Of a stretch of DNA of 64,000 nucleotides, positions 40,227 to 53,474 are shown piece after piece. Both the position numbers and the translations under genes were made by a program. The stretch lies in assembly GCF_002157895.1 (NCBI RefSeq), contig NZ_CP021377.1, forward strand, positions 992,001 through 1,056,000. The letters are read 5' to 3'. The first letter of the stretch is position 1. Each line of letters begins with the position of its first letter. Under the pieces are notes generated by a model. It was not told where the DNA came from. It saw only the letters and a list, made by a program, of their open reading frames with translations, and ran no database searches. The stretch comes from Oceanisphaera profunda (GTDB taxonomy: Bacteria; Pseudomonadota; Gammaproteobacteria; Enterobacterales; Aeromonadaceae).

Positions 40227-40961
40227 TTAAGCCGCCAAGCCACCCAAGATGCCTTGTATCAAGACCACGATGGCAGAAATAGCAGACACCAATAAAATGG
40301 CGGGTCTGGCACTTTCCACGCTCACCACTCGCTCCAAATGGCGGGATAACCAAAAACCGATGATAACCCCCGGCAGCATTTTTACAATCAAGGAGAAGCC
40401 CAGCACGCTCGCCCCTCCTTGCCACCACAGCATCAGCAGTGAAAGAGGCGTGCCGACTAAAAAGAAAGCGGCAATTTCGTTACGCGCCGTAAGCCGCGCT
40501 TCATGTTGATACAAGAGCGCAATCGGCGGGCCGCCCACAGACGTAGCCGTGCCTAACACGCCGGATAAAAAGCCCGCCACCGTTAAACTTACACCATTGA
40601 GCGGCAGCGAATAACGACGCAGACTCAACCACACCGCCAATAATAAAGCCGAACCAAAAAATAGGCTGAGCTGCCACGACGCTATGCTCACCAATAACAG
40701 CGCCCCGCACCAAGAGCCCGGCAGGCGCGCCACAATTGCCGGCAATATGCGGCGAAAATTAAGACTGTGGCGCTGTTTAAACACCACCACCACAGATAAT
40801 AACCACCCCAACATCAACACAGGTCCTGGCACATAGGCGGGATCAATCAAGTACAACAAGGGCGCGGCCAACAGGCCAAAACCAATGCCCACCCAGGCCT
40901 GCACTATGATGCTAATGGTGACGATTAATAGCGCCAGCAATTCTAATGATGAATACAGCAC
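40227..40961 (-). CDS. Sulfite/sulfonate-type exporter family (TSUP/TauE) permease
   Basis: About 244 residues with 7-8 hydrophobic segments: ELLALLIVTISIIVQAWVGIGFGLLAAPLLYLI at the N-terminus (GxGxGxxxxP signature of the family), then VLMLGWLLSVVVVF, and the second repeat VAGFLSGVLGTATSVGGPPIALLYQ with the typical GxxGTxTSVGGPPIxL motif. The TSUP family exports small anions, mostly sulfur-containing ones; the substrate here is unknown. I start at GTG 40961, with AGGA 7 bp upstream; the frame is open to 41138, but that part is hydrophilic, repeat-derived and contains AT-rich DNA. It faces the same way as the unknown pair upstream but a terminator separates them. Confidence 0.78.
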   Translation of the reverse strand: MLYSSLELLALLIVTISIIVQAWVGIGFGLLAAPLLYLIDPAYVPGPVLMLGWLLSVVVVFKQRHSLNFRRILPAIVARLPGSWCGALLLVSIASWQLSLFFGSALLLAVWLSLRRYSLPLNGVSLTVAGFLSGVLGTATSVGGPPIALLYQHEARLTARNEIAAFFLVGTPLSLLMLWWQGGASVLGFSLIVKMLPGVIIGFWLSRHLERVVSVESARPAILLVSAISAIVVLIQGILGGLAA

Positions 40962-41069
40962 GCATTTATCCTGCCGTAAAAAATGCCATTCTAGCATGAA
41001 AGAAACAGCGCCGAGCGAACCCGTAGCTCGGGCCTCTTGAACGCTTAATTTTTTAATATGAATAAAAAA

Positions 41070-41100
41070 ACCGAGCCACTGACATAGGTCAATGCTCGGT
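41070..41100 (-). terminator. Terminator of the 41-43.6 kb operon
   Basis: ACCGAGC / GCTCGGT outer stem with an inner TGAC-ATAG-GTCA stem; the minus strand continues in seven Ts. 89 bp past the stop at 41190. It separates the unknown pair from the TSUP gene. Confidence 0.85.
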
Positions 41101-41189
41101 CTTAAATAAGGTAAATAGCTGAAACACCAAACGAACAAAAGCGGTGGCTGTCTTTAAGCTAAACGCTCAGCGCTGGATGCCGGCCGTTG

Positions 41190-41939
41190 CTATACACTGC
41201 CCGCCCCTTGGCGAGAGCGTTCACTGTTTTCGACTAAGATACCGGCACCTAGGCGATTAATATCATTCCATAACGCATCATCAATTTCGATGCCGTGGTC
41301 GATAATGTACTCCTTGTTATCGGCCAATTGCTCGGGGCTCATATAAAGCGCGTTTCGGTTACCCTTAGAGCTCTGTAACGATGCAGATAAGTCCACTCGC
41401 GAGCTGCACACTATGGTGAGCGCCTGAGTCTCATCCGGATTAGTCACCAAGCTGGTCGTCGCCTCACTGAAACTGGGATAGCGCTCTCCTGCTTTAATCC
41501 CCGCCGCATATTCTTTCACCGTCTTGCTGCCGTTTTGCCAATAGGCGGTCACACTAATGCCCCGTCTCCCGCAGTCGGTAAGCGCCTTAAGCGCAAACAT
41601 ACGGTTATGGCAGTTATGCACGGTAATAGTGGCAATACCGCTTTCTAAGGCTTTGGCGTGCGCCAAATCAATCGAGGAGGCAATGCAGTTAAGCGCGCTA
41701 CGGCCATTGCTGTCGATAATGGCTGAAGTACTGTCTTCATACACCACAGTACTGAGCGGCTTATCAAAATCCAGACCAATATAAGGCAAGGCGCGCTTTA
41801 GCTCTGCCAGGCCGTTAAGGCCGTGTTTTTCTAGCCATAACACCATATTAGCTGCATCTTCATAGTTACCCACAAAGTAGCCTGAAGCCTCAAAACAACG
41901 GCGCAACGCCGCTTTTAGTTCGTTCATTGACACTTGCAT
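41190..41939 (-). CDS. Ldh_2-like protein of unknown function (DUF3726-type)
   Basis: 249 residues, no signal peptide or membrane segment. N-terminal helix-rich part (MNELKAALRRCFEASGYFVGNYEDAANMVLWLEKHGLNGL) resembles the start of type-2 malate/L-lactate dehydrogenases, and SIDLAHAKALESGIATITVHNCHNRMFALKALTDCGRRGISVTAYW resembles the middle, with the expected His-containing NSSHFG-like segment changed to NCHNR. I think this is the family listed as DUF3726, but from memory only. A cofactor-dependent dehydrogenase role is inference. Its start overlaps by 1 bp the stop of the 548-residue gene, so the two are made together. Confidence 0.6.
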   Translation of the reverse strand: MQVSMNELKAALRRCFEASGYFVGNYEDAANMVLWLEKHGLNGLAELKRALPYIGLDFDKPLSTVVYEDSTSAIIDSNGRSALNCIASSIDLAHAKALESGIATITVHNCHNRMFALKALTDCGRRGISVTAYWQNGSKTVKEYAAGIKAGERYPSFSEATTSLVTNPDETQALTIVCSSRVDLSASLQSSKGNRNALYMSPEQLADNKEYIIDHGIEIDDALWNDINRLGAGILVENSERSRQGAGSV

Positions 41940-43585
41940 CAGTCAATTCCTCCCACTACGGGCGCCAGCGGCATAAACCAATCATCGTTATAAACGTGGC
42001 CAATATCTTCTAGCAGCGGAGCACCTTGAAACATGGTGTTGCGTACCCACAACTTAGAGCGGGGATCGAACTTACTCACGCCAAAAAAGGATAATTTGCA
42101 GCGCAGCAGGTGCATGGGCAGTACATCTTTGGCCAACAGGTTGGCTTGAATATCACCGTACACACAGCGGTCCATACTTTGAATGCGCCGCACGATACCG
42201 CGCAGCTTGGGTCGCGCCACCATAAAGCGGGCAGTGGTGTGCTCTGGATGTTCTTTAATGTATTGGCACAACAACTGGTAGCACTTATATACCGCGTAGC
42301 CTACGCCCAGTGGCATTTGCTTTTCTCGCCCTTGATCCAGCGCGCACTCACCGAGGCGGGGCTCCATTTTATCTTCTGAGCGATACCAGAAAATATCTCG
42401 TGAACCGACGGCATTAAAGTCTATTTTCAATGCCCAGTCATAACGGCGCTCGATCACTTCTTTGAGCTTTTGCAGTGGCATCAAAGAGTCCAGATCAAGA
42501 AACTCTTCCACGCAGTAATAGTCATCCAAGCCATCCACCAGCTGCGGATAAAGCTCCAACAGTATCGACACCAGCAGCTCTTGCCCTTGCAGTGAGCAGT
42601 GCTGCTCGCTCCACGCCAAGAAGTCATTCCAGTCGTGCAACGAGGCACCCGCTTGCTCGCGCAACGCCGAGAGATCGTCAATTACCCGCACATTGTTATT
42701 GGTCTGCCAAGGATCTTCGGTGAAAGTCTCCGCCATGTGCTGAGCACTGCGCGCCAATAGCGCATCCAATTGCTGGCGTATGCGGTCGTCGATAAAGCCT
42801 AAGCTTCGCACCAAGGCCAGCGCCAGCTCGCGCATTTCTATCCATTGGTTAATGAGCATGGGGTGATTAATCAGATAGGGGGCCATGCCAAGACCGGTGG
42901 AGTTGCCGATACCGAAATAGCGCTTGATATGCGGCTGCATGGGATTATATTGCTGCGGATTACGTTGTTGGGCAATGTGCTCAACTTGTAACAAGCTGAA
43001 GTTTCTCAACATTAAGCAGGCAAACATTTCGGCGGCAAAAGGCCGGGCAAAGTCGGGATACCGAGTGCTGACTTTATCCCAGTCGGCCATGCCCAGCTTG
43101 CCACTGCCGTATACAGCTGTGGTGCGATACAAGTAACCCACCTTGGCGATTTTGGCTATATCGGGCTGCTCGCCCTTGCTTAATTGATCGACCACATAAT
43201 CAAAGTTGCGCGCACTGCGATTAGCACGAGACAACACAAACACGCGCGCATCCACGCGGCCCGCTTCCTGCAACGGCACATTTTGGCGTAAAAAGGCTAA
43301 GTAATCGTCTTCTACGCGCCCTGCTACCAGTGCCATGGTGAGATCCCATTTACTGGCAACCACGCGGTCGTTGCGCTCTGCTGAGCTTAAGTAATCAGAG
43401 AAAATAACGAAGCTGAACAGCCCCTGCGCGGTGTTGATTTCATAAATAACGGTGCCGTAACCCTCGGCACACAGATCCAAGCGAGCAGTATTGATTTGCC
43501 AGCGCTCAAGCATGATGCGGCGCACTAAAATGCGCATAAAACTCAATCGGCTCTGGTGCATAGCGCCCAGTCGTTCCAAGTCCAT
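41939..43585 (-). CDS. Conserved protein of unknown function, partner of the Ldh_2-like protein
   Basis: 548 residues from the first ATG in frame; soluble, Leu/Arg-rich and mainly helical, no signal peptide, no motif I recognise. Notable segments: MRILVRRIMLERWQI, FVIFSDYLSSAERNDRVVASKWD, VFVLSRANRSARNFDYVVDQL, YFGIGNSTGLGMAPYLINHP, FNAVGSRDIFWYRSEDKMEPR. The reading frame remains protein-like upstream of this ATG (SNQSLPAGPNALPLRPVDQV) with no start codon, while a well-placed ATG at 43659 with GAGGG before it is one frame off; one more G in the run at 43622-43625 would join them. So the true start may be 43659. Confidence 0.65.
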   Translation of the reverse strand: MDLERLGAMHQSRLSFMRILVRRIMLERWQINTARLDLCAEGYGTVIYEINTAQGLFSFVIFSDYLSSAERNDRVVASKWDLTMALVAGRVEDDYLAFLRQNVPLQEAGRVDARVFVLSRANRSARNFDYVVDQLSKGEQPDIAKIAKVGYLYRTTAVYGSGKLGMADWDKVSTRYPDFARPFAAEMFACLMLRNFSLLQVEHIAQQRNPQQYNPMQPHIKRYFGIGNSTGLGMAPYLINHPMLINQWIEMRELALALVRSLGFIDDRIRQQLDALLARSAQHMAETFTEDPWQTNNNVRVIDDLSALREQAGASLHDWNDFLAWSEQHCSLQGQELLVSILLELYPQLVDGLDDYYCVEEFLDLDSLMPLQKLKEVIERRYDWALKIDFNAVGSRDIFWYRSEDKMEPRLGECALDQGREKQMPLGVGYAVYKCYQLLCQYIKEHPEHTTARFMVARPKLRGIVRRIQSMDRCVYGDIQANLLAKDVLPMHLLRCKLSFFGVSKFDPRSKLWVRNTMFQGAPLLEDIGHVYNDDWFMPLAPVVGGID

Positions 43586-44348
43586 TACTTGGTCAACGGG
43601 TCGCAGTGGCAGAGCGTTAGGCCCCGCAGGGAGGCTTTGATTGCTGCTAACCTCATCATGTTTCTACCCTCGATAATGACTAAATATCCTTATTGCGCTA
43701 TTTACCGAGCTGTAGCCCAACATAACGCAGGGTCAGAAAGATCAAACATTATTCCGTTATTCATTGAATTAGGGATGCGACTTTCTACCTCATGGCTCAC
43801 ATCATGGTGCCTTTCAATAAAATCCAACAAGTTAAATGCTTATATCGTTTGATAAGAAAAGTTTATCAGAATGCCAGCAAAGCGTATTAATACTGATGGC
43901 AATCTAAATAACTGACTTTATGGTTAGAAAAATAATGAGCAAAATGAGAGGTCGCGCAGGTTTATTAACAAGCAGTGAAGGGTAAATAGTGAAAGGTGAA
44001 GAGGACGACATGAAACAAAGACCACACATAATCATCCGTATTTGAAGGATTGGTGTGTATAAGCTAGTCCCCTTTGCTCTTCACCCTTTACACTTCGCAA
44101 GTTTAAAGCAGATACCGGAGCAAGTCCGGCAAGACGGCAGAAGAGACAACACCCAAACCAGTCTGCATATTCAGTCTCAGTCCTTACCATTAAAGATCCC
44201 TTTCAGCTCTGATCACTATTTTCCCGTGCTTCTCATTAATAAAGAGGCGTGTTCTTCCGTGGCAAAAGGTGTTTAGTGTCGGTGTGATATTTCAAACCGT
44301 TCCGCCTTCGGCGAAATGCGAGAGCAAGCGTTCGCCTACAAACACCCC
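43586..44348. other. 763-bp gap with promoter, family F and B pieces and a GTAG palindrome
   Basis: The first 75 bp are probably the true 5' end of the gene ending at 41939. 43660-43960 is unique AT-rich sequence, probably its promoter region. Family F words lie at 43973-44005 (GTGAAGGGTAAATAGTGAAAG) in shortened form and 44078-44100; the right half of a family B element is at about 44185-44270 (GATCACTATTTTCCCGTG, CTTCCGTGGCAAAAGG); a GTAG palindrome on the minus strand runs 44299-44339 (GTAGGCGAACGCTTGCTCTC, arms GGCGAA/TTCGCC). No other gene. Confidence 0.6.
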
Positions 44349-45236
44349 TCAGTCTTGGCTGGCCAGAATAAAATCGACCAGCGCCTGGGCGGGCGGGGTT
44401 AACGACTTATTATTCAGCCGAATTATACCGATGCGCCGCGTGATCACCGGCGTGTGCAACGGAATAAAAGTGAGCTTGGTATTATCTTTGGGAAAGGCAT
44501 ACCAAGGCAGCGTGGTGACGCCAAAGCCCGCCTCTAGCATGGCCACCAACGACATCATATTAGAGATATAATACTGAGAATGCGCCAATAGCGACTCGGC
44601 CTCACTGCCCTCAAGCAATCGAGAAGTACCATTACTGATTAACCGATATTCCCGCAATGCCTGCCAATGTAACTCGCTGTGGCTGGCCAACGGGTGATCG
44701 CTAGGGCACACCACCCCTAATCTGTCTTCCCACACCGGCGTAAAATGCTTTTCACTTTCTCTTTGCTCATCAAACAGGCTGGCAATACCAAAATCCACCT
44801 GCTGGTTTTCGACCATTTTCAACACTGCATCCGAGTTATCGTCAAACACACTCACGTGCAAATCGTTGCTACCGATGAAATTAAGCAACAATTCAGGCAA
44901 AAATCGACAGGCAATGGAGGGCACAGACGCCAAGCGCAAATGTCCGGTTTTATGCTCGGCCAGCAAGGTCATGTCTTCGGCAATGCGATCGTGATGGGCG
45001 AGCAACTCTTTTGCCTTTGGCAAAAAATGTTGTCCAAACGGCGTCAGCTCAGTTTTAGCGGCACGACTATTATGCTTTTCAAACAAGGCTTCGCTTAACT
45101 TATTTTCTAAGTCACGAATCGACAACGAAATAGCAGGCTGGGTGCGATGCGCCTTTTCTGCCGCTAAATGAAAGCCTTTTAGCTCGGCTACCCAAACAAA
45201 GTGACGCAGTTGAGCAATCTTGAATTCTGGCAGCAC
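44349..45236 (-). CDS. LysR-family regulator of the divergent catabolic genes
   Basis: 295 residues. N-terminal winged helix (FKIAQLRHFVWVAELKGFHLAAEKAHRTQPAISLSIRDLENKL) and an effector domain of periplasmic-binding fold (VSVFDDNSDAVLKMVENQQVDFGIASL, ISNMMSLVAMLEAGFGVTTLPWYAF). It is divergent from the aldehyde dehydrogenase with 94 bp between starts, the classical layout for a LysR regulator that controls the neighbouring operon. The effector cannot be told from the sequence. Confidence 0.9.
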   Translation of the reverse strand: MLPEFKIAQLRHFVWVAELKGFHLAAEKAHRTQPAISLSIRDLENKLSEALFEKHNSRAAKTELTPFGQHFLPKAKELLAHHDRIAEDMTLLAEHKTGHLRLASVPSIACRFLPELLLNFIGSNDLHVSVFDDNSDAVLKMVENQQVDFGIASLFDEQRESEKHFTPVWEDRLGVVCPSDHPLASHSELHWQALREYRLISNGTSRLLEGSEAESLLAHSQYYISNMMSLVAMLEAGFGVTTLPWYAFPKDNTKLTFIPLHTPVITRRIGIIRLNNKSLTPPAQALVDFILASQD

Positions 45237-45330
45237 GATAAGAATTCCTTATCAGTTAATATTATTAATTAATTTTTATTATTAAAACACAGCTTCTATG
45301 ATGATACCAATCAAGCAAAGGAGATCACTC
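45237..45330. promoter_or_regulatory. Divergent promoter/operator region, LysR gene / aldehyde dehydrogenase
   Basis: Very AT-rich (CTTATCAGTTAATATTATTA, ATTAATTTTTATTATTAAAA), with the palindrome ATTAATTAAT at about 45265-45274 and several overlapping T-N11-A matches, as expected of LysR-type sites. The AT-richness makes the exact site unclear. AAGGAG lies 8 bp before the ATG at 45331. Confidence 0.5.
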
Positions 45331-46773
45331 ATGTCTAATTCAGTATTTCGTAACTACATCGCCGGTGAATGGGTTGAAGGCCCAAGTGCTATTGCTAACA
45401 TCAGCCCGTCTGATCTGAGCGATGTTATCGGTCATTACGCCCAAGCCGATGCCGCTCAGGCCAAAGCCGCCATCGCTGCCGCCGTTAACGGCCAGTTAGA
45501 ATGGCAGAAAAGTGGCCTAGAGCAGCGCTACGCCGTACTGATGGCCATTGGTGACGAGCTTATCGCCCGTAAAGACGAGCTGGGTAGACTGCTGGCCCGT
45601 GAAGAAGGCAAAACCTTAGCCGAAGGCGCCGGTGAAGTGTATCGCTCTGGTCAGTTCTTTCATTACTACGCCGCCGAAGTGCTGCGCCAAATGGGTGAAA
45701 CCGCAGACTCAGTCCGCCCAGGTGTAGACATTGAAACCCGCCGCGAGCCCGTGGGCGTGGTGGGAATTATCACACCGTGGAACTTCCCGACTGCCACCGG
45801 CGCGTGGAAAATTGCCCCAGCACTGGCCTTCGGTAATGCGGTGGTGTGGAAACCCGCCAACCAAGTGCCTGCTTCCGCTTGGGCATTGACCGAGATTATC
45901 TCGCGCCAGCAGCTACCCGCCGGCACGTTCAACCTAGTAATGGGCCCTGGCGCCGAAGTGGGAGATGTGTTAATCCACTCTCGTGACATTAATGCCCTGA
46001 CCTTTACCGGTTCACTGGAAACTGGCCGCAAGGTGGCCGTGGCCACGGCCGGTAACTTAGTAAAATGCCAGCTGGAAATGGGCAGTAAAAACGCATTAGT
46101 GGTATTGGACGATGCGGACTTAGATAACGCCGTTGAGTGTGCGGTAGGTGGTGCTTACGGCGGCACCGGTCAGAAATGTACTGCTTCTTCTCGCCTGATT
46201 GTTACCGAAGGCATTCACGACCGCTTTGTGGCCGCCGTGATTGAGCGCATGAAAAAGCTAGTAGTCGGTAATCCGCTAAAAGAAGGCGTACACATTGGTG
46301 CCGTAGCCGATGCCCGCCAAATGGAATCTAACCTGAAATACCTGGAGCTGGCCAAAGCTGAAGGCGGCAACTTGGTATACGGCGGCGAGGTGATCACCGC
46401 AGAAACCGAAGGCTACTACATGCAGCCAGCGCTGTTTATCGACACCACCAACGACATGACCATTAACCGCGAAGAAGCCTTTGCGCCCATTGCCTGTGTA
46501 ATCAAGGTCAAAGACTACGCTGAAGCGCTGGCCACCTTAAATGACACCAACTTTGGCTTAACCGGCGGCATTTGCACCGAATCATTAAAGTATGCCACCG
46601 ACTTTAAACGCAACGCCAAAACTGGCTGCGTGATGGTGAACTTGCCCACTGCAGGCACCGATTACCATGTGCCATTTGGCGGGCGTAAAGACTCTAGCTT
46701 CGGCCCTCGTGAACAGGGTACTTATGCCAAAGAGTTTTACACCGTCGTCAAAACCACCTACATCCGCGCTTAA
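45331..46773 (+). CDS. NAD(P)+-dependent aldehyde dehydrogenase
   Basis: 480 residues; oxidises an aldehyde to the acid. EPVGVVGIITPWNFPTATGAWKIAPALAFGNAVVWKPA (cofactor site, catalytic Asn in PWNFP), LTFTGSLETGRKVA, catalytic Glu in QLEMGSKNALVVLDDADLD and Cys in GGTGQKCTASSRLIV (about Cys 284), FAPIACVIKV. It resembles semialdehyde dehydrogenases acting on charged short aldehydes such as alpha-ketoglutaric semialdehyde, but the substrate is not certain. Start at 45331 (MSNSVFRNYIAG), decided by AAGGAG; the frame to 45298 is longer. First gene of the LysR-divergent operon; the next starts 13 bp on. Confidence 0.9.
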   Translation: MSNSVFRNYIAGEWVEGPSAIANISPSDLSDVIGHYAQADAAQAKAAIAAAVNGQLEWQKSGLEQRYAVLMAIGDELIARKDELGRLLAREEGKTLAEGAGEVYRSGQFFHYYAAEVLRQMGETADSVRPGVDIETRREPVGVVGIITPWNFPTATGAWKIAPALAFGNAVVWKPANQVPASAWALTEIISRQQLPAGTFNLVMGPGAEVGDVLIHSRDINALTFTGSLETGRKVAVATAGNLVKCQLEMGSKNALVVLDDADLDNAVECAVGGAYGGTGQKCTASSRLIVTEGIHDRFVAAVIERMKKLVVGNPLKEGVHIGAVADARQMESNLKYLELAKAEGGNLVYGGEVITAETEGYYMQPALFIDTTNDMTINREEAFAPIACVIKVKDYAEALATLNDTNFGLTGGICTESLKYATDFKRNAKTGCVMVNLPTAGTDYHVPFGGRKDSSFGPREQGTYAKEFYTVVKTTYIRA

Positions 46774-46786
46774 CGGAGACAGGGCT

Positions 46787-47797
46787 ATGAGCCGAACATT
46801 ACATAACGACATGATAGTGATTGACGGGTTGCAGTATTCCAACTGGAGCCGAGAAATCTTCGAGCAACTGCACCAAGGCGGCGTGACCATGGTGCACGCC
46901 ACCATCGTCTATCACGAACAGATCCGCGAAACCCTGATGCGCGTTGCCGAGTGGAACCGTCAGTTTGAACTACACGGCGACCTTATTATGCCGGTGCGCA
47001 GCAGTGATGATATTCGCCGCGCCAAGGCCGAAGGCAAAGTCGGCATTATGTTTGGGGCGCAAAACTGCTCCCCGATAGAAGACGATATTGGCATGGTGGA
47101 GGTCATGCGTGATCTCAATCTGATGATCATGCAGCTCACCTACAATAACCAGAGCTTACTGGCCTGCGGTTGCTACGAAGCGGTAGATAGCGGCGTCACG
47201 CGCTTTGGTCGCCAAGTGATCAAAGAAATGAATCGGGTGGGCATGGTTATCGACATGAGCCACAGCGCCGAGCGCAGCACGTTAGAGGCTATCGAAATTT
47301 CTGAGCGCCCTATCGTTATCTCGCACGCTAACCCGTTAAGCTTTCACGATGCTAAGCGCAACAAGTCAGATACTGTGCTGAAAGCACTGGCCGAATCCGG
47401 TGGTTTGTTAGGCTTTAGCGCCTATCCTTTCCACCTGAAAAATGGCCCCGATTGCACGCTGGACGAATACTGCGACATGATTGCCCGCACTGCAGATCTC
47501 ATGGGCGTAGACCGCTTGGGCATCGGCACCGATTTATGCCAAAACCAGCCGCTGTCGGTGCTGGAATGGATGCGCAATGGTCGCTGGTCTAAGGCCATGG
47601 ATTATGGCGAAGGCTCTAAGGCTAATGCCGATTGGCCACGACCATTATCTTGGTTTCGTGACAGCCGCGACTTCCCCAACCTCACCAAGGGCTTGTTAGC
47701 CCGAGGCTTTAGCCAACAAGACACGGCAAAAATAATGGGCCAAAACTGGCTGACCTTCCTAGATACCGCCCTGCAGCCACAAACTGCTGCTCAATAA
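46787..47797 (+). CDS. Peptidase family M19 (membrane/renal dipeptidase-like) hydrolase
   Basis: 336 residues, no signal peptide. TIM-barrel metal-dependent hydrolase: MIVIDGLQYSNW instead of the usual DGHND/DxHxD metal site, KVGIMFGAQNCSPIEDDI (usual EGG), EMNRVGMVIDMSHSAERSTLEAI (His ligand), PIVISHANP (His ligand), DRLGIGTDLCQNQP. The first His-x-Asp pair is replaced by GLQY, so the di-zinc site is altered and it may not be a dipeptidase. Related M19 proteins occur near methylated-amine catabolism in pseudomonads. Start at 46787 with GGAGACAGGG upstream, in a tight operon. Confidence 0.85.
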   Translation: MSRTLHNDMIVIDGLQYSNWSREIFEQLHQGGVTMVHATIVYHEQIRETLMRVAEWNRQFELHGDLIMPVRSSDDIRRAKAEGKVGIMFGAQNCSPIEDDIGMVEVMRDLNLMIMQLTYNNQSLLACGCYEAVDSGVTRFGRQVIKEMNRVGMVIDMSHSAERSTLEAIEISERPIVISHANPLSFHDAKRNKSDTVLKALAESGGLLGFSAYPFHLKNGPDCTLDEYCDMIARTADLMGVDRLGIGTDLCQNQPLSVLEWMRNGRWSKAMDYGEGSKANADWPRPLSWFRDSRDFPNLTKGLLARGFSQQDTAKIMGQNWLTFLDTALQPQTAAQ

Positions 47798-47802
47798 GAA
47801 TA

Positions 47803-47823
47803 ACGGGGAGCCTAGCTCCCCGT
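47803..47823 (+). other. Intercistronic hairpin
   Basis: ACGGGGAG, loop CCTAG, CTCCCCGT: perfect 8-bp stem 5 bp past the M19 gene, without U tract. Probably protects or attenuates the message before the BCCT gene. Confidence 0.65.
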
Positions 47824-47848
47824 GTAATGTTCCATAATGGAGGCGAAC

Positions 47849-49423
47849 ATGAGCAATAAAACAGAGGCGGAACTGGCCATGGATACCCATTCAACAAATA
47901 ATACCCCCCAAAAAACCACTTTTTTTACCGGACTGGACTTACCGGTCTTTCTGCTCAGTGGCGGCGCCCTTATGCTGTTCGTCATCATGGCGCTCTACGA
48001 CATTCAATTGGTATCGAGCTGGGTAGACAATGCCTTTGCCGTATCAACCAAACTGTTTGGCGCTTACTGGCAGGTATTACTGTTACTGACCTTTTTAATC
48101 GCGATAGCCATGGCAGTAGGCAAAGGCGGCAACGTGCGCCTAGGCGGATTAGCGGTGCCGGAGATGTCTACTTTTCAGTGGATGTCGATCATCATGTGTA
48201 CCTTGCTGGCTGGCGGCGGTGTGTTTTGGGCCGCAGCAGAGCCACTGGCGCACTTTCTTTCTCCTCCCCCTTTGTATGCCGATGAAACCGATGGCATGAA
48301 CAAGGCCATTAACGCGCTGGCACAAAGCTTTATGCACTGGGGATTTTTAGCCTGGGCTATTCTGGGCAGCTTAACCGGCATCGTCTTTACCCACTTACAT
48401 TACGACAAAGGCTTGCCGCTTAAACCTCGCACCTTGTTATATCCGGTGTTTGGTGACTGGGTCATGAAAAGCTGGCTAGGCACCTTGGTCGATGCTTGCT
48501 GCGTATTAGCGGTAGTGGCGGGCACCGTAGGCCCCATCGGCTTCTTAGGCTTACAAATCAGCTTTGGCCTAGAAAAACTGTTTGGCATTCCCGATACCTA
48601 TATGACTCAGGTGATGATCCTCGTCGGTTTGATTGCCATCTATACCTTATCTGCGGTGAGTGGCGTGAATCGCGGCATTAAGATACTCAGTAATTTAAAC
48701 GTGGTGCTGGCCGCATTTTTAATGCTGTTTATTCTATTGTTTGGCCCTACAGCCTTTATCATTGATGCCTATATCGGTGCCTTTGGTGTGTATATCAGTG
48801 ATTTCTTCCCGATGGCGACCTTTAGGGCCGATCCTGCCTGGTTAGATTGGTGGACGGTATTCTTCTGGGGTTGGTTTTTAGGCTATGGCCCGTTAATGGC
48901 GATGTTTGTGGCGCGTATTTCACGGGGGCGCACCGTGCGTCAGGTGATTTTATTAATCGCCATCGTCGCGCCTATCATCACCTGCTTCTGGTTCACCATC
49001 ATGGGCGGCAGTGGTATTGCGTTCGAGTTAGCCAATCCGGGCAGTGTGTCTGAAGCCTTCTCGGGGTTTAACTTACCCGCCGCATTACTGGCCATCACCG
49101 AACAGCTGCCACTGGGCACCATCATCTCGGTGTTGTTTTTAATCCTCACAACCATCTTTGTTGCCACCACCGGTGACTCCATGACCTATGCGGTATCCAT
49201 GGTTATGACCGGAACGGATCACCCTCATTCAGGAGTACGAGTGTTCTGGGGCGTGATGATGGGGGTAGTGGCGGCTATTTTAATTTCCATTGGCTCCGGA
49301 GGAATATCAGCGCTGCAATCCTTTATTGTGGTCACCGCAGTACCTGTCTCTTTTGTGTTGCTGCCCACGCTATGGACGGCACCGAAGATCATTAAGCAAA
49401 TGGCGATTGAACAAAACTTGTAA
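47849..49423 (+). CDS. BCCT-family (betaine/carnitine/choline) transporter
   Basis: 524 residues, about 12 membrane segments. LAGGGVFWAAAEPLAHF, SFMHWGFLAWAILG, the family segment WWTVFFWGWFLGYGPLMAMFVARISRGRTVRQVI with Trp-rich substrate region (aromatic cage), TTGDSMTYAVSMVMTGTD. In the choline/betaine members the box is Met/Trp-rich; here YGPLMAMFVARISRGRT fits the family signature. It imports quaternary amines or similar zwitterions with Na+ or H+. Start at 47849, RBS GGAGG. Its place in the operon suggests the pathway substrate is a betaine-like or other zwitterionic compound. Confidence 0.92.
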   Translation: MSNKTEAELAMDTHSTNNTPQKTTFFTGLDLPVFLLSGGALMLFVIMALYDIQLVSSWVDNAFAVSTKLFGAYWQVLLLLTFLIAIAMAVGKGGNVRLGGLAVPEMSTFQWMSIIMCTLLAGGGVFWAAAEPLAHFLSPPPLYADETDGMNKAINALAQSFMHWGFLAWAILGSLTGIVFTHLHYDKGLPLKPRTLLYPVFGDWVMKSWLGTLVDACCVLAVVAGTVGPIGFLGLQISFGLEKLFGIPDTYMTQVMILVGLIAIYTLSAVSGVNRGIKILSNLNVVLAAFLMLFILLFGPTAFIIDAYIGAFGVYISDFFPMATFRADPAWLDWWTVFFWGWFLGYGPLMAMFVARISRGRTVRQVILLIAIVAPIITCFWFTIMGGSGIAFELANPGSVSEAFSGFNLPAALLAITEQLPLGTIISVLFLILTTIFVATTGDSMTYAVSMVMTGTDHPHSGVRVFWGVMMGVVAAILISIGSGGISALQSFIVVTAVPVSFVLLPTLWTAPKIIKQMAIEQNL

Positions 49424-49455
49424 GACGTACTCGTTAAGCGATTTTTAATCTAACT

Positions 49456-49480
49456 GAGCGGCACTAGCCGCTCTTTTTTT
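49456..49480 (+). terminator. Terminator between the BCCT gene and ridA-like gene
   Basis: GAGCGGC, loop ACTA, GCCGCTC, seven Ts; 33 bp after the BCCT stop. It should separate the operon from the RidA gene in part. Confidence 0.85.
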
Positions 49481-49505
49481 CTGTATTTACCAAAAGGAAT
49501 ACCTC

Positions 49506-49880
49506 ATGAAAACAGCCGTGAAAACCGATCTGTTCGCCTCTAAGGCGCCGCTAGAATGGGCAGTGATGGCCAATGGTCAGTTTTATACCGCACAAATTCC
49601 CATTGATGCCGAAGGTAAGGTGGTTGCCGGCGGCATTGAAGCCCAAGCCCGCCAAACCATGGACAACTTTAAACACACCATAGAAGCGGCGGGCTTAACC
49701 ATGGCGCACGTCACTCAGGTGCTGATCTACGTCACCGCCCGCGAGCAACTGCCGATATTCAACAAGGTGTATGCGGAATACTTTGACGCCCCCTACCCCA
49801 ACCGTGCCGCCATGATAGTGGTGGGATTGGCCCGAGAAGAAATGCTCTGCGAGATCGTGGCTTACGCCGCACAAGGCTAG
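49506..49880 (+). CDS. RidA-family imine/enamine deaminase
   Basis: 124 residues, full length for RidA. It hydrolyses reactive 2-aminoacrylate-type enamines or imines. ANGQFYTAQIPIDAEGKVVAGGIEAQARQTMDNFKHTIEAAGLTMAHVTQVLIYVT, catalytic Arg in PYPNRAAMIVVGL (Arg105 in E. coli RidA), Glu in MLCEIVAYA. Members coded with catabolic genes often clear a pathway imine. RBS AAGGA lies about 8 bp upstream of the ATG. It follows the BCCT gene behind a terminator, so it may be on a separate transcript. Confidence 0.9.
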   Translation: MKTAVKTDLFASKAPLEWAVMANGQFYTAQIPIDAEGKVVAGGIEAQARQTMDNFKHTIEAAGLTMAHVTQVLIYVTAREQLPIFNKVYAEYFDAPYPNRAAMIVVGLAREEMLCEIVAYAAQG

Positions 49881-50028: not shown

Positions 50029-52122
50029 ATGTCTGCACTCAACCCGATTCCTGAATTTTTGCGTAAGAAAAGCCGGCCCAAGCACACCTCCGAGCCCTGC
50101 TATGCGCCGCTGCCCATGCTATGGGCGCTGCGTCTGTTGCTGCTCGGCGGGGGCGTAAAAATAGGCTTAAGCAAACGCCGCCATGACTTAGATGACTTTT
50201 TACAAACGCTGGCCCCCGAACAAGAGGCAAGTGAGCTCACTCCCACTGAGGTAATGTCGTTGTTAAGCGCCGCCTTGGGCAAGCTAGAGAGCACCCGCAT
50301 TGATATTCCGGCGCCGCTCGACACTAACTTGCAGCAACTGGGCGTCAGCCTTGGCCTCAACGAGTTGCAGCAAGAAATAGTGGCATTTTTAGTCTTGATA
50401 GAACAAGACAATGTGCTCAGCCAAGCCATGGGCTTATTTTATTCCAATACGGTGGGTACCCAGCAATTGGTGAACCTATTAGCCATCGCATTAGTACAAC
50501 CCCGCCGCCAAGTGAGCTTAGCGCTGGCCGCCAGCAGCCCCCTGCTCAGCTGTGGTTTAGTGGAAATCGCCTACCACGGCCAAGGTCTGGCACTAATGAC
50601 CGGCTTAGAGGACGTACTGCTTTATGAGCAAGACGGACCTTTAAGCTTATTGCAGGCATTTTCTAACCACAATCTGCCCACCTTATTAACCCTCGACGAC
50701 TTTGCACATTTACAGCCCTTTATTGACCAACTCACCCGCTACTTATCCCGCAATATTCAAAGACCGCACAGCGGCATGAACATATTGCTTTATGGCGCAC
50801 CGGGCACCGGTAAAACCGAGCTAACGCGCGCGTTGGCGGCGCATTTAGGTTGCGTGTTACATGAAGTGAAATTTGCCAATCTGCAAGGTGAAGCGCTAAA
50901 CGGCCGTGAGCGTTTCGCTCGCTACCAGCTCTGCCAACAAGTGCTGCGCACCAATGCGAATAGCCTAGTGCTGTTTGATGAAGTAGAGGATGTATTTAAT
51001 GAGCGCATCAGCCAAGGCCAAAAGGCTTGGGTGAATCGACTACTCGAAGACAACCCCCGCCCCGCGTTTTGGCTAACCAATGATATTTCCGAGTTAGACG
51101 CTGCCTTTATTCGCCGTTTTGATTTGGTATTAGCCATGCCGGAGCTTACTGCCGAAGCGAGACTTAATATCGCCAAGCGCTTACTCAATAAACTCAATGT
51201 CAGCGAGCCTTGGTTACAACAACTGGCCAAGCAGCCCCATTTACAACCGGCTCACTTAGCGCGAGCCGCTAAAGTGGTGCAAAAACTGGGTTATCGCAAA
51301 GCAGAAAAAGTAGAGGCGGCCATGGAAGACTTATTAGCAAACTTATACCAAGCCTTGGGTTTTCATTGGCAGCGTTTAAGTCAGCCAAAAATACAGTCGT
51401 TATTTAATCCCGCGCTGTGTGCCAGTGATACGGCATTAGCGCCCATGATCAAGGGCTTAGCGCGCAGTGGCATGGGCCGTTTGTGCCTATATGGCCCACC
51501 GGGTACGGGTAAAACCGCCTTGGCTCGTCATTTGGCCGTGACTCTAGATAAACCGCTGCTTGCCAAAAAAGCCTCCGACTTATTAGATGCCTTTGTCGGC
51601 GGTACCGAGAAAAATCTGGCGGCTGCCTTTGATGAGGCCACCGAGAGCGGCGCTATTTTGTTAATCGACGAAGCAGACAGTTTATTGGCCACGCGTGCCG
51701 GTGCGGTGCGTAATTGGGAAGTAAGCCAAGTGAATGAGTTATTGGTTCAAATGGAGCAATATAACGGTATTCTGGTGATGGCTACTAACTTTATGAGCCA
51801 TTTAGACGCGGCCGCCTTACGGCGCTTTGATTTTAAAATTCGTTTTAATTACTTTAGTCCTGAGCAAGCATGGATGTATTTTAATACCCAGCTTGGACTG
51901 GCGGTAGGAACTGATTTTTATGAGCAAGAAGTGGCACATTTATATTCGGCATTATGCAAACTCAGTCAATTAACGCCCGGGGATTTTGCCGCCGTAGCCC
52001 GACGCCATCAAGTGATGGGTGAGAAGATCAGCCCAGAGAGCTTACTGGCAGGCTTGCAGCAAGAGCACAGCCTAAAAACCGCCGACCAAAGTAAGCCCAT
52101 TGGCTTTATGGCCAATCAGTAA
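50029..52122 (+). CDS. Double AAA+ ATPase of unknown function
   Basis: 697 residues, soluble. About 230 N-terminal residues of helical unknown domain; first AAA+ module with Walker A YGAPGTGKTELTRAL (about 257-271), Walker B LVLFDEVEDVF (about 313), Arg finger in AAFIRRFDLV; second module with Walker A YGPPGTGKTALARHL (about 488-502), Walker B ILLIDEADSLL (about 543), Arg finger in AAALRRFDFK. All main motifs look intact in both, so both should hydrolyse ATP. It resembles classical AAA (Cdc48/FtsH-type) rather than Clp. Upstream gap holds short repeats of GCCTAA(T/C)T. The next gene is a WYL regulator; whether they work together is unknown. Confidence 0.8.
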   Translation: MSALNPIPEFLRKKSRPKHTSEPCYAPLPMLWALRLLLLGGGVKIGLSKRRHDLDDFLQTLAPEQEASELTPTEVMSLLSAALGKLESTRIDIPAPLDTNLQQLGVSLGLNELQQEIVAFLVLIEQDNVLSQAMGLFYSNTVGTQQLVNLLAIALVQPRRQVSLALAASSPLLSCGLVEIAYHGQGLALMTGLEDVLLYEQDGPLSLLQAFSNHNLPTLLTLDDFAHLQPFIDQLTRYLSRNIQRPHSGMNILLYGAPGTGKTELTRALAAHLGCVLHEVKFANLQGEALNGRERFARYQLCQQVLRTNANSLVLFDEVEDVFNERISQGQKAWVNRLLEDNPRPAFWLTNDISELDAAFIRRFDLVLAMPELTAEARLNIAKRLLNKLNVSEPWLQQLAKQPHLQPAHLARAAKVVQKLGYRKAEKVEAAMEDLLANLYQALGFHWQRLSQPKIQSLFNPALCASDTALAPMIKGLARSGMGRLCLYGPPGTGKTALARHLAVTLDKPLLAKKASDLLDAFVGGTEKNLAAAFDEATESGAILLIDEADSLLATRAGAVRNWEVSQVNELLVQMEQYNGILVMATNFMSHLDAAALRRFDFKIRFNYFSPEQAWMYFNTQLGLAVGTDFYEQEVAHLYSALCKLSQLTPGDFAAVARRHQVMGEKISPESLLAGLQQEHSLKTADQSKPIGFMANQ

Positions 52123-52436
52123 TAAAGAATTCAAAAAACCTAAAATTATTTAGCCACGGAAGAACACAGAAAAATAAAGATCAGATCTGGAAGAAAATTT
52201 TATAATAAAAGCTGAGGTTAGGCACCGTAGAAGCCGCTTTAGCTGGCTGATGCCGCGCAGCGGTATTATAAATATTCAAACTACGCCATATTTATAAATA
52301 AACGTCCACATTCAATATGCCGTAGCTGTTATATTTTAGTTTTGTTACACAAAACCGGCCAGCTTAAGCGGCCTCTACGAGGATGTTTTCTTACAGTTCG
52401 GCGCTTACTTTACACCTCCCTCCACCAAGGAACACC
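52123..52436. repeat. Repeats between the AAA+ and WYL genes
   Basis: Left half of a family B element (ATTTAGCCACGGAAGAACAC, about 52149-52195); then a family A inverted pair with GTAG at 52227 and CTAC ending at 52379, its inverse arm containing TTTTGTTACACAAAACCGGC. RBS AAGGA precedes the ATG at 52437. Confidence 0.7.
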
Positions 52437-53474
52437 ATGGCAACGCAACACGACACGCTTATTCGATATATCACTATGTTACAGCTGATCCCACGGGCAC
52501 CGCAGTTTAAGGCCACCACCACACTGCGCGACTTGCTGGCCGATCGCGGCTTTCACGTTGATCTGCGATCCATTCAGCGGGATCTCGATAAGATGTCGTT
52601 GCACTTTCCGCTGCTGTGCAACAAAAACGAGCGCCCTTATCGCTGGTCATTTGATCCCAGTTACAAGAGTAATTTGCCAGCGCTCGACACCGCCACCGCG
52701 CTAACTTTAGTGCTGGCAGAAGAATATTTAAAAAGCCTATTGCCGCAAATTGCCATCGACCGCCTCAGCCCGCAGTTTGATGGCGCACGAAAGTTTCTCG
52801 ATGGTCTACATGAAAACGGTTACGCCAGCTGGTCTCGCCAAGTGCGCGCCATTCCTAATGGTAAAGCCTTATTACCCGCCGCCATCTTGCCGCACATTTG
52901 GCAAGGTGTCAGCGACGCGCTATTAGAGCGCCAAACCATAGCGGTGCAGTATTTAAGTCGCCAGCAAGGCGAGGTGCGAGCCTTTACCCTGCATCCACAG
53001 GGGCTGGTAGTACGCCATAGTGTCAGCTATTTATTGGCCACCGTGAATGACTATGAAGATATTCGCCAATTTGCCCTGCATCGTATTCAAGAGCTAAAAC
53101 CTAGCCCCGCCGCCTATCGCAGCCACCCCGACTTTAGTGTTGAGGCTTACATCGCCAAAGGCGCTTTCGGTTATCCGCTAGGCCAACAACACGTCGAATT
53201 AGTCGCCAAAATAGACAAGGCCATGGCCTGGTTATTAGCAGAAACGCCCATCAGTCAGCAACAACACTTATCTGCAGCTGACGAGCAAGGTTGGATAACC
53301 CTCACCGCCACCGTACCGAACGATCAACAAACCCAATGGTGGATAATGGGCTTCGGCGCCCGCATCCAAGTACTCGCACCCAGCAGCTGGCGTGAGGCCA
53401 TTATCGAACAAGCGCAGAAGATGATGGAGCAGTATGGGGCAGCGCCAAGCGTCCTGCACCAAGCGCCGAGCTAG
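52437..53474 (+). CDS. WYL-domain (YafY-type) transcriptional regulator
   Basis: 345 residues: N-terminal HTH (LIRYITMLQLIPRAPQFKATTTLRDLLADRGFHVDLRSIQRDLDKMSLHFPL), WYL domain (QTIAVQYLSRQQGEVRAFTLHPQGLVVRHSVSYLLATVNDYEDIRQFALHRIQEL; the WYL triad reads as SYL here) and a C-terminal WCX domain. Such regulators bind ligands or ssDNA and often control stress or defence genes. I start at 52437 (MATQHDTL), with AAGGA; the frame to 52383 begins in a family A repeat. The C-terminal PSVLHQAPS is encoded by a family C repeat (AGCGTCCTGCACCAAGCGCC) that also provides the stop codon. Confidence 0.85.
   Translation: MATQHDTLIRYITMLQLIPRAPQFKATTTLRDLLADRGFHVDLRSIQRDLDKMSLHFPLLCNKNERPYRWSFDPSYKSNLPALDTATALTLVLAEEYLKSLLPQIAIDRLSPQFDGARKFLDGLHENGYASWSRQVRAIPNGKALLPAAILPHIWQGVSDALLERQTIAVQYLSRQQGEVRAFTLHPQGLVVRHSVSYLLATVNDYEDIRQFALHRIQELKPSPAAYRSHPDFSVEAYIAKGAFGYPLGQQHVELVAKIDKAMAWLLAETPISQQQHLSAADEQGWITLTATVPNDQQTQWWIMGFGARIQVLAPSSWREAIIEQAQKMMEQYGAAPSVLHQAPS

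Follow-up and report, generated by a model that had tools for sequence, protein, structure and literature searches.

The seven genes at positions 41190-49880 of the window (the whole analysed stretch of 64,000 nt of Oceanisphaera profunda DNA) are predicted to be a gammaproteobacterial, RidA-type version of a catabolic cluster for homarine (N-methylpicolinate), a reading to which we assign a probability of about 0.68. The initial annotation left the cluster unassigned and held that its substrate may be new. This is probably wrong, as the cluster is linked in some alphaproteobacteria to genes from the clade of N-methylglutamate dehydrogenase (Mgd), and Mgd is said in PMC13390433 to take part in homarine catabolism; together these two points make homarine the best assignment. 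In the window organism, where no Mgd was found, this tie to homarine is missing.

An ORF check and Pfam typing confirmed all seven genes with their positions and strands, and bore out the gene types first proposed (LysR, ALDH, M19, BCCT, RidA and an unknown protein of 548 residues). The minus strand carries a DUF3726 protein of 249 aa (41190-41939), the 548-residue protein, here called U548 (41939-43585), and a LysR-family regulator (44349-45236; PF00126 and PF03466). An A+T-rich gap (45237-45297), presumably the control region, separates the LysR gene from the divergent aldehyde dehydrogenase (ALDH) gene (45298-46773), which is followed on the plus strand by genes for an M19-like protein (46787-47797), a BCCT transporter (47837-49423) and a RidA-family imine/enamine deaminase (49506-49880). 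For the M19-like gene the probable start is 46787 (336 aa), while the mechanical ORF opens at 46667. The leftward pair was said to end in its own terminator, and folding of 41040-41192 on the minus strand indeed gave a long hairpin and an accompanying T run (41101-41064), about 90 bases past the DUF3726 stop (-18.8 kcal/mol for the hairpin alone), of which a simple terminator scan caught just a weak piece. Since this strong hairpin stands between, we rejected a TauE permease gene as a member of the leftward unit; the TauE gene is a conserved neighbour at 10 loci, and its co-transcription with the pair is not supported. For the proposed rightward operon the order and strand of ALDH, M19, BCCT and RidA hold. 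Between BCCT and RidA there is another strong hairpin of terminator type with a T run after it (49456-49473, plus strand), hence RidA is not necessarily on the same transcript as BCCT. A further hairpin with a 9-bp stem (47803-47823) was found between the M19-like and BCCT genes. A mobile island was rejected by composition, as the G+C contents of its two parts (49.9 and 51.7%) are close to that of the window (50.5%).

The gene set is shared by many marine bacteria and by some from soil, beyond chance. Among 141 loci with any U548 match, the window's own included, we counted 112 that had a U548 relative and enough flanking DNA; dropped before the counts were L126 and L127 (Sinorhizobium/Neorhizobium-type), U548 matches below 150 bits and loci with less than 5 kb on either side. 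Eighty loci are the best 80 of 575 confirmed relatives and therefore lean towards close kin, and several loci share one genome (L142 with L143, L135 with L157) or are near-copies. Near U548 in the 112 loci we found the M19-like gene 108 times, DUF3726 100, ALDH 88, LysR 85 and BCCT 73 times, so the co-occurrence on which the initial annotation was to be judged extends across many genera. At loci outside the window's class the proteins share 57-64% (ALDH), 52-66% (M19-like) and, where the cluster BCCT is present, 58-60% identity with those of the window; the BCCT of L135 and L136 is a different one (29-33%). Of 385 genomes from the class to which genome G255 belongs, 53 carry U548, as do 29 of 398 genomes of the phylum sample, and two U548-bearing genomes (L177 and L178) measure 1.2 and 1.3 Mb, with 31 and 28% GC in their 20-kb loci. 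The homarine cluster is said to be widespread in environmental bacteria, small marine alphaproteobacterial genomes included, and the distribution of U548 in our genome surveys agrees with this. A literature search for the five-gene combination gave no match.

Searches of Pfam, NCBIfam and PADLOC gave no family for the U548 protein, and its profile had three PDB matches, none of them significant (E 0.49-0.89). Two alignments show good conservation, numerous charged and aromatic positions being invariant, and we regard the protein as a candidate ring-attacking component and, being without known family or solved structure, as a possibly new protein. Its partner was initially described as Ldh_2-like. 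It is instead a DUF3726 protein (PF12525, 85.3 bits, cut-off 22.1); the Ldh_2 match stays at 29.4 bits, below the Pfam cut-off of 38.8, and covers 130 of 333 profile positions, and a malate/lactate dehydrogenase was rejected on these grounds. For DUF3726 no NCBIfam family was matched and a literature search found nothing. The start of the DUF3726 gene overlaps the U548 stop (TGATG), and the two are fused in Mesorhizobium L044.

The M19-like protein matches PF01244 from profile position 29 (272.9 bits, cut-off 26) and has no NCBIfam family. The binuclear metal site of M19 enzymes is formed by an HxD motif, a bridging Glu, two His and an Asp. Like the renal-type dipeptidases of the family (PDB 3id7, 1itq), the window protein has the two His, Arg-Asn and Asp motifs, and the ligand-type His, His and Asp are 100% conserved in our 124-row alignment. 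The HxD and the bridging Glu of those enzymes are replaced: where two annotated dipeptidases (L193, L195) read HND and EGAE, the window reads LQYSN and AQNC, with Q at both replaced places in 100% of the 124 rows where filled. The best PDB match, the "amidohydrolase" 2i5g, shows the same losses, and the window protein belongs to the 2i5g subgroup. Since three of the five metal ligands customary in the family are absent, the suggestion that this enzyme hydrolyses an amide or ring is unsafe. The lack of HxD and bridging Glu in the "M19" proteins of the cluster is possibly a new observation.

The ALDH has its catalytic Cys and Glu in all of 106 aligned rows. Its nearest NCBIfam models are 2-oxoglutarate semialdehyde (2,5-dioxovalerate) dehydrogenases, all under cut-off, the best at 470.7 bits against an equivalog cut-off of 770. 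The transporter matches PF02028 at full length (512.5 bits, 1-484 of 485). In BCCT carriers the Trp residues of TM8 serve in binding of quaternary amines; the cluster BCCT lacks this classic motif as seen in two solved carriers, and has F and Y where these carry W (WGWFLGYGP; 96% of 88 rows). Across loci the carrier alternates between BCCT, a glycine-betaine-type ABC system and a branched-chain-type ABC system, and in Sinorhizobium a divergent trio stands with another carrier and an aminotransferase.

The RidA protein (PF01042, Ribonuc_L-PSP; 73.5 bits) has the Arg of PYPNR in 100% of 67 aligned rows. This Arg is a conserved residue of the RidA active site, and we predict an imine deaminase from family and residue. 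None of the 112 loci combines RidA with a ketimine-reductase-like Ldh or with genes of Mgd/Sox type: 66 have RidA alone, 25 Ldh/Sox alone and 21 neither. This exclusivity is possibly new. The state changed eight times on one quick tree with long branches, which was also built without matches below 450 residues and two duplicate rows, and L058 and L054 show a swap at the same site. It should be noted that the two states are also split by taxonomy, with a median p of 0.06 in an independent-pair sign test, and that BCCT and LysR, too, accompany Ldh less often than they accompany RidA, so lineage may account for some of the pattern. Two Ldh proteins tested from the 21 loci with Ldh, both from RidA-less loci, have delta1-piperideine-2-carboxylate reductase (1wtj, 2cwf, 2cwh) as best PDB match, whereas a genome search found no full-length Ldh_2 protein in the window organism.

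The link to Mgd comes from alphaproteobacterial relatives. In Ruegeria TM1040, L171 and L172 the cluster lies beside soxB-D-A-G-like genes and an AraC-type regulator; L170 has the four sox-like genes, the regulator not being in the DNA examined, and Shinella L042 has soxB, D and A with a GlxA-type regulator. In R. pomeroyi the AraC-type tmaR adjoins mgdABCD (PMC13390433). In a SoxB tree of 22 rows, two of which (L140, L177) are distant FAD proteins at 21-23%, TM1040, L042 and L170-L172 fall with the GmaS-linked L173, L187 and L188, set off from the sarcosine-oxidase side by a branch with support 1.0. A separate clade holds L066, L098 and L113, and L102 lies on the sarcosine-oxidase side, so the cluster-linked SoxB proteins are not all of Mgd type. 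Within one family an MgdA-like gene is present in 52 of 54 carriers against 42 of 66 non-carriers, and for close-type MgdA the association is modest (24/54 against 12/66, p 0.0025, the genomes not being independent). All 19 carriers outside the window's class have an MgdA-like protein at 66-90% identity. Genome searches found neither Mgd nor GmaS in the window genome, and among the gammaproteobacterial carriers (n=16) 13 besides the window genome showed no Mgd tie; G101 and G189 have SoxB-like proteins at 52-56% on the sarcosine-oxidase side of the tree. Hence the exit in the window organism is probably hydrolytic, possibly a new point.

From gene content, conservation, linkage and residue changes in the sequences we infer the substrate, the order of steps and the release of formate and methylamine as follows. 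LysR would control the two divergent units, and BCCT would import the zwitterion, which is flat and quaternary. The pyridinium ring may be attacked and opened by U548, DUF3726 and the M19-like protein, ring C6 leaving as a one-carbon unit, probably formate via an N-formyl group. The ALDH would oxidise a five-carbon glutamate-semialdehyde-like aldehyde, and the remainder would be an N-methyl ketimine/enamine of 2-oxoglutarate. In the window RidA would hydrolyse this to 2-oxoglutarate and presumably methylamine. Elsewhere its place would be taken by a ketimine reductase of DpkA type (Ldh_2), giving N-methylglutamate, which Mgd would oxidise to glutamate. The import of a zwitterion, oxidation of an aldehyde and imine step in the pathway first proposed fit this evidence; its M19 hydrolysis is the unsafe part. 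By atom count, homarine + 4 H2O = N-methylglutamate + formate + 2[H]. A single ALDH linked to NAD would thus be enough to balance this without O2, and the cluster holds no oxygenase.

A bacterial homarine pathway has reportedly been described by Ferrer-Gonzalez et al. (2026, Nat Microbiol 11:1531). The likeness would lie in conservation among environmental bacteria and in the Mgd tie; the window version has RidA and BCCT and lacks Ldh and Mgd. The operon is reportedly named homABCDER, for which a literature search gave no match; the six letters would fit the LysR and five enzyme genes of TM1040 besides BCCT. The trigonelline tgn pathway likewise degrades an N-methylpyridinium carboxylate with an ALDH and an amide hydrolase after ring opening, but uses a two-component flavin monooxygenase, and none is present in the window cluster.

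Degradation of another N-methylated or heterocyclic zwitterion (trigonelline, a methylated proline or pipecolate betaine, or an N-methyl lactam), also via an N-methyl amino acid, appears improbable. The Mgd link by itself says just that an N-methyl amino acid is likely, and the alternating carriers and the Sinorhizobium trio with its aminotransferase would suit such a substrate, whereas the identities of ALDH, M19-like protein and BCCT outside the class suggest one substrate, and the role reported for Mgd (PMC13390433) is in homarine catabolism. An ordinary accessory cluster for glycine betaine or choline is very unlikely. It would draw on the 2i5g match, the AraC neighbour in TM1040 that matches GbdR best (under cut-off), the sox-like genes near the cluster in relatives and Pseudomonas MPC6, where the cluster has close by a second ALDH and the alpha subunit of a ring-hydroxylating dioxygenase. 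Against this, the Pfam and NCBIfam scans of neighbouring window genes turned up neither a betaine monooxygenase nor a dimethylglycine demethylase, the BCCT motif is unlike that of the two solved carriers, and the sox-like genes of TM1040, L042 and L170-L172 group with the Mgd linked to GmaS rather than with the type linked to PurU. A glycine betaine or carnitine cluster was rejected on the same evidence.

Within the homarine reading we tentatively speculate that U548, DUF3726 and the M19-like protein with its remodelled metal site form a new dearomatising system for hydrolytic opening of N-methylpyridinium rings, with interchangeable exits for the ketimine, either RidA (2-oxoglutarate and methylamine) or reduction followed by Mgd. 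If so, RidA would serve this pathway specifically instead of acting as a general housekeeping detoxifier, and the small end gene of the cluster would set whether homarine feeds methylamine release or internal capture of one-carbon units and nitrogen, with consequences for how nitrogen and methylamine are budgeted in the sea. Homarine is common in marine algae. Diatoms contain it as an osmolyte, and R. pomeroyi drew it down to at most 2% of its start within 10 h (PMC12817926). That U548 and DUF3726 instead form a chaperone or regulatory complex, with the M19-like protein alone opening the ring, seems quite doubtful to us. No cofactor motif was recognised in them and DUF3726 is variable (20-30% identity between lineages), but the conserved charged and aromatic residues of U548 and the overlap and fusion of the two genes speak for a catalytic part, and in the two small alphaproteobacterial genomes L177 and L178 U548, DUF3726 and the M19-like gene are the sole cluster genes standing together.

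The gene set at 41190..49880, which the initial annotation had regarded as unassigned, is now best filed as a RidA-type variant of the pathway for homarine (N-methylpicolinate), whose operon we take to be named homABCDER. All seven genes described there are present where they were placed, with the Pfam types DUF3726, none for the 548-residue protein (U548), LysR, ALDH, M19, BCCT and RidA. The U548 and DUF3726 genes overlap at TGATG, and the M19-like gene starts at 46787, 13 bp past the ALDH end. The terminator proposed after this leftward pair is real, as a hairpin with a folding energy of -18.8 kcal/mol and a T run lies at 41101-41064, and a second terminator-like hairpin separates BCCT and RidA. 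Between the M19-like and BCCT genes lies a perfect 9-bp inverted repeat (47803-47823) that lacks a coding-strand T run, possibly an mRNA processing or stability element. The genome around the window is one contig of 3.51 Mb.

Nine U548 proteins were searched against species genomes, which confirmed at least 575 relatives. In the DNA fetched for the best 80 of these 575, where some contigs were cut, we detected genes for M19-like (75), DUF3726 (75), ALDH (69), BCCT (66), LysR (65) and RidA (51) proteins. The closest named U548 relative among the matches listed was from the gammaproteobacterial MAG L046 (88%), where the window's TauE-cinA-recA flank recurs. Carriers of U548 made up 29 of 398 genomes in the phylum sample, 17 of 148 in the order sample and 53 of 385 in the sample of the class of genome G255. 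Among 112 loci flanked by 5 kb or more of DNA on both sides, M19 was seen in 108, DUF3726 in 100, ALDH in 88, LysR in 85, BCCT in 73, RidA in 66, Ldh_2 in 21 and Sox/Mgd-like genes in 10. In Mesorhizobium a single 814-aa protein comprises U548 and DUF3726. Two loci from the class of G255 (L177 and L178; genomes of 1.20 and 1.32 Mb) keep M19-like, U548 and DUF3726 together without other cluster genes, and a SoxA-like gene is found some 8-9 kb away; by their small genomes and the 31 and 28% GC of the 20-kb loci these appear SAR11-like.

None of the 112 loci had both RidA and Ldh/Sox; RidA was alone in 66, Ldh or Sox alone in 25, and neither was found in 21. The same exclusivity holds for the 88 ALDH-bearing loci (0 both, 65 RidA only, 17 Ldh/Sox only, 6 neither), and ALDH itself shows no avoidance of Ldh (15/21 Ldh loci) or Sox (8/10). 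Lineage accounts for part of the split, since BCCT and LysR are rarer with Ldh (7/21 and 10/21) than with RidA (62/66 and 65/66). A quick tree built from 111 U548 proteins required 8 changes between RidA and Ldh/Sox, a figure that rises to 21 when "neither" is counted as a state of its own; so far as this tree goes, it is clear that the exchange recurs. Independent pairs on the tree gave 0 in the same direction and a mean of 4.7 opposite (median p 0.06); once relatedness is corrected the exclusivity is hence of borderline significance. The clearest swap is a supported sister pair, with RidA directly 3' of BCCT in Endozoicomonas L058 and Ldh at that place in Marinomonas L054. Further, genome G436 has two copies, one with Ldh and no M19-like gene nearby (L142), the other with RidA (L143). 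Both tested Ldh proteins had delta1-piperideine-2-carboxylate reductase as best PDB match. RidA-type and Ldh-type proteins act on imines, hence the two look like alternatives for one intermediate.

The Ruegeria TM1040 cluster (LysR, ALDH, M19-like, BCCT, U548, DUF3726 and Ldh) is adjoined by an AraC-type regulator and soxB-D-A-G-like genes. This arrangement was found again in L171 and L172, and in L170 sox-like genes lie behind Ldh and a different BCCT. In R. pomeroyi the AraC-type regulator gene tmaR is reported to adjoin mgdABCD, which encodes N-methylglutamate dehydrogenase (Mgd), and Mgd is reported to participate in homarine catabolism (PMC13390433). When 22 SoxB sequences were placed on a tree, the cluster-linked genes of TM1040, L170-L172 and Shinella grouped with the GmaS-linked L173, L187 and L188; it should be noted that the GmaS name is our own assignment, the L173 protein being a type III glutamate-ammonia ligase in NCBIfam. 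This side also includes L169 and L181, and the sarcosine-oxidase side holds the PurU-linked L174 and L175; the branch between the two sides has a support of 1.0, inner branches 0.35 to 1.0. As L066, L098 and L113 form a separate SoxB clade and the L102 gene falls on the sarcosine-oxidase side, the partnership of the cluster with Sox-type oxidases may have more than one origin.

An MgdA-like gene (E <=1e-150) was detected in 52/54 carriers versus 42/66 non-carriers in the family of G255 (Fisher p 1e-5, relatedness not corrected), and close-type MgdA in 24/54 versus 12/66 (p 0.0025). Outside the window's class, each of the 19 carriers has an MgdA-like gene (66-90% identity). Within that class it was absent at E <=1e-40 from 14 of 16 carriers, the window genome included, and the remaining two gave a match of 52-56%. 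The best GmaS match in the window genome reached 39% over 258 residues, GlnA-like by our own reading, and the same genome yielded no full-length Ldh_2 protein.

In the pathway we propose, BCCT would import the substrate, U548, DUF3726 and the M19-like protein would open the ring, C6 would leave as a one-carbon unit and the five-carbon aldehyde would be oxidised. The N-methyl ketimine would then be hydrolysed by RidA in the window type, or reduced and passed to Mgd in the alpha type. Our own atom balance is homarine + 4 H2O = N-methylglutamate + formate + 2[H], so an oxygenase is in principle dispensable, though one may still be used. Possible novelties are the repeated swapping of RidA and ketimine reductase, a pathway exit lacking both Mgd and GmaS, an M19-like protein that has been remodelled, and the U548-DUF3726 pair, which lacks a family assignment.

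Compared with two annotated dipeptidases (L193 and L195), the M19-like protein of the window has LQYSN for HND and AQNC for EGAE; the HxD residues and the bridging Glu act as metal ligands in M19 enzymes. Among 124 aligned M19-like rows Q occupies both sites in 100% of the filled rows, with His, His, Arg-Asn and Asp kept. These losses are common to the nearest solved relative, 2i5g, and to the Sinorhizobium paralogue. The window protein may hold a single metal or work in another way, and the label "peptidase" is not safe. The BCCT TM8 motif is W-G-W-F-L-G-Y-G-P. Its F and Y, present in 96% of 88 rows, stand where the two structurally solved carriers used for comparison have W. The ALDH Cys and Glu are kept in 100% of 106 rows and the RidA Arg in 100% of 67.

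Divergent trios of U548 (29-30%), DUF3726-like and M19-like genes were seen on Sinorhizobium meliloti pSymB (L126 9923-13369) and in Neorhizobium (L127 9944-13340), beside an IclR regulator and an ABC transporter, with an aminotransferase and two RidA genes in L126 or one RidA gene in L127; these probably serve similar chemistry on a different substrate. In a MarineAlpha5 MAG (L108 8926-12343) the trio has its M19-like gene inverted, lacks the cluster ALDH and adjoins Xsc-like and other osmolyte-type genes, named by eye. Pseudomonas sp. MPC6 (L040 1-19632) carries the cluster on a plasmid typed as conjugative, between genes for an IS6 transposase and for a ring-hydroxylating dioxygenase alpha subunit, with a second BCCT and two mandelate-racemase-type genes farther out.

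Past the terminator of the leftward pair, a TauE/SafE permease gene lies on the minus strand (40227-41138, likely start 40997 or 40961). Among 140 other loci, 10 also have a TauE gene behind DUF3726, with Neptunomonas, Amphritea, Marinobacterium, Oceanospirillum, Pseudomonas, the MAG L046 and L165 represented; the permease may serve in product export, or its position may be due to chance. On the plus strand a double AAA+ ATPase (50029-52122), with IetA- and TRIP13-like PADLOC matches, is followed by a WYL-type regulator (52383-53474), possibly as a defence or stress unit; in 20 other genomes of the genus, full-length AAA+ relatives (68%) were found in 2 and partial ones in 3.
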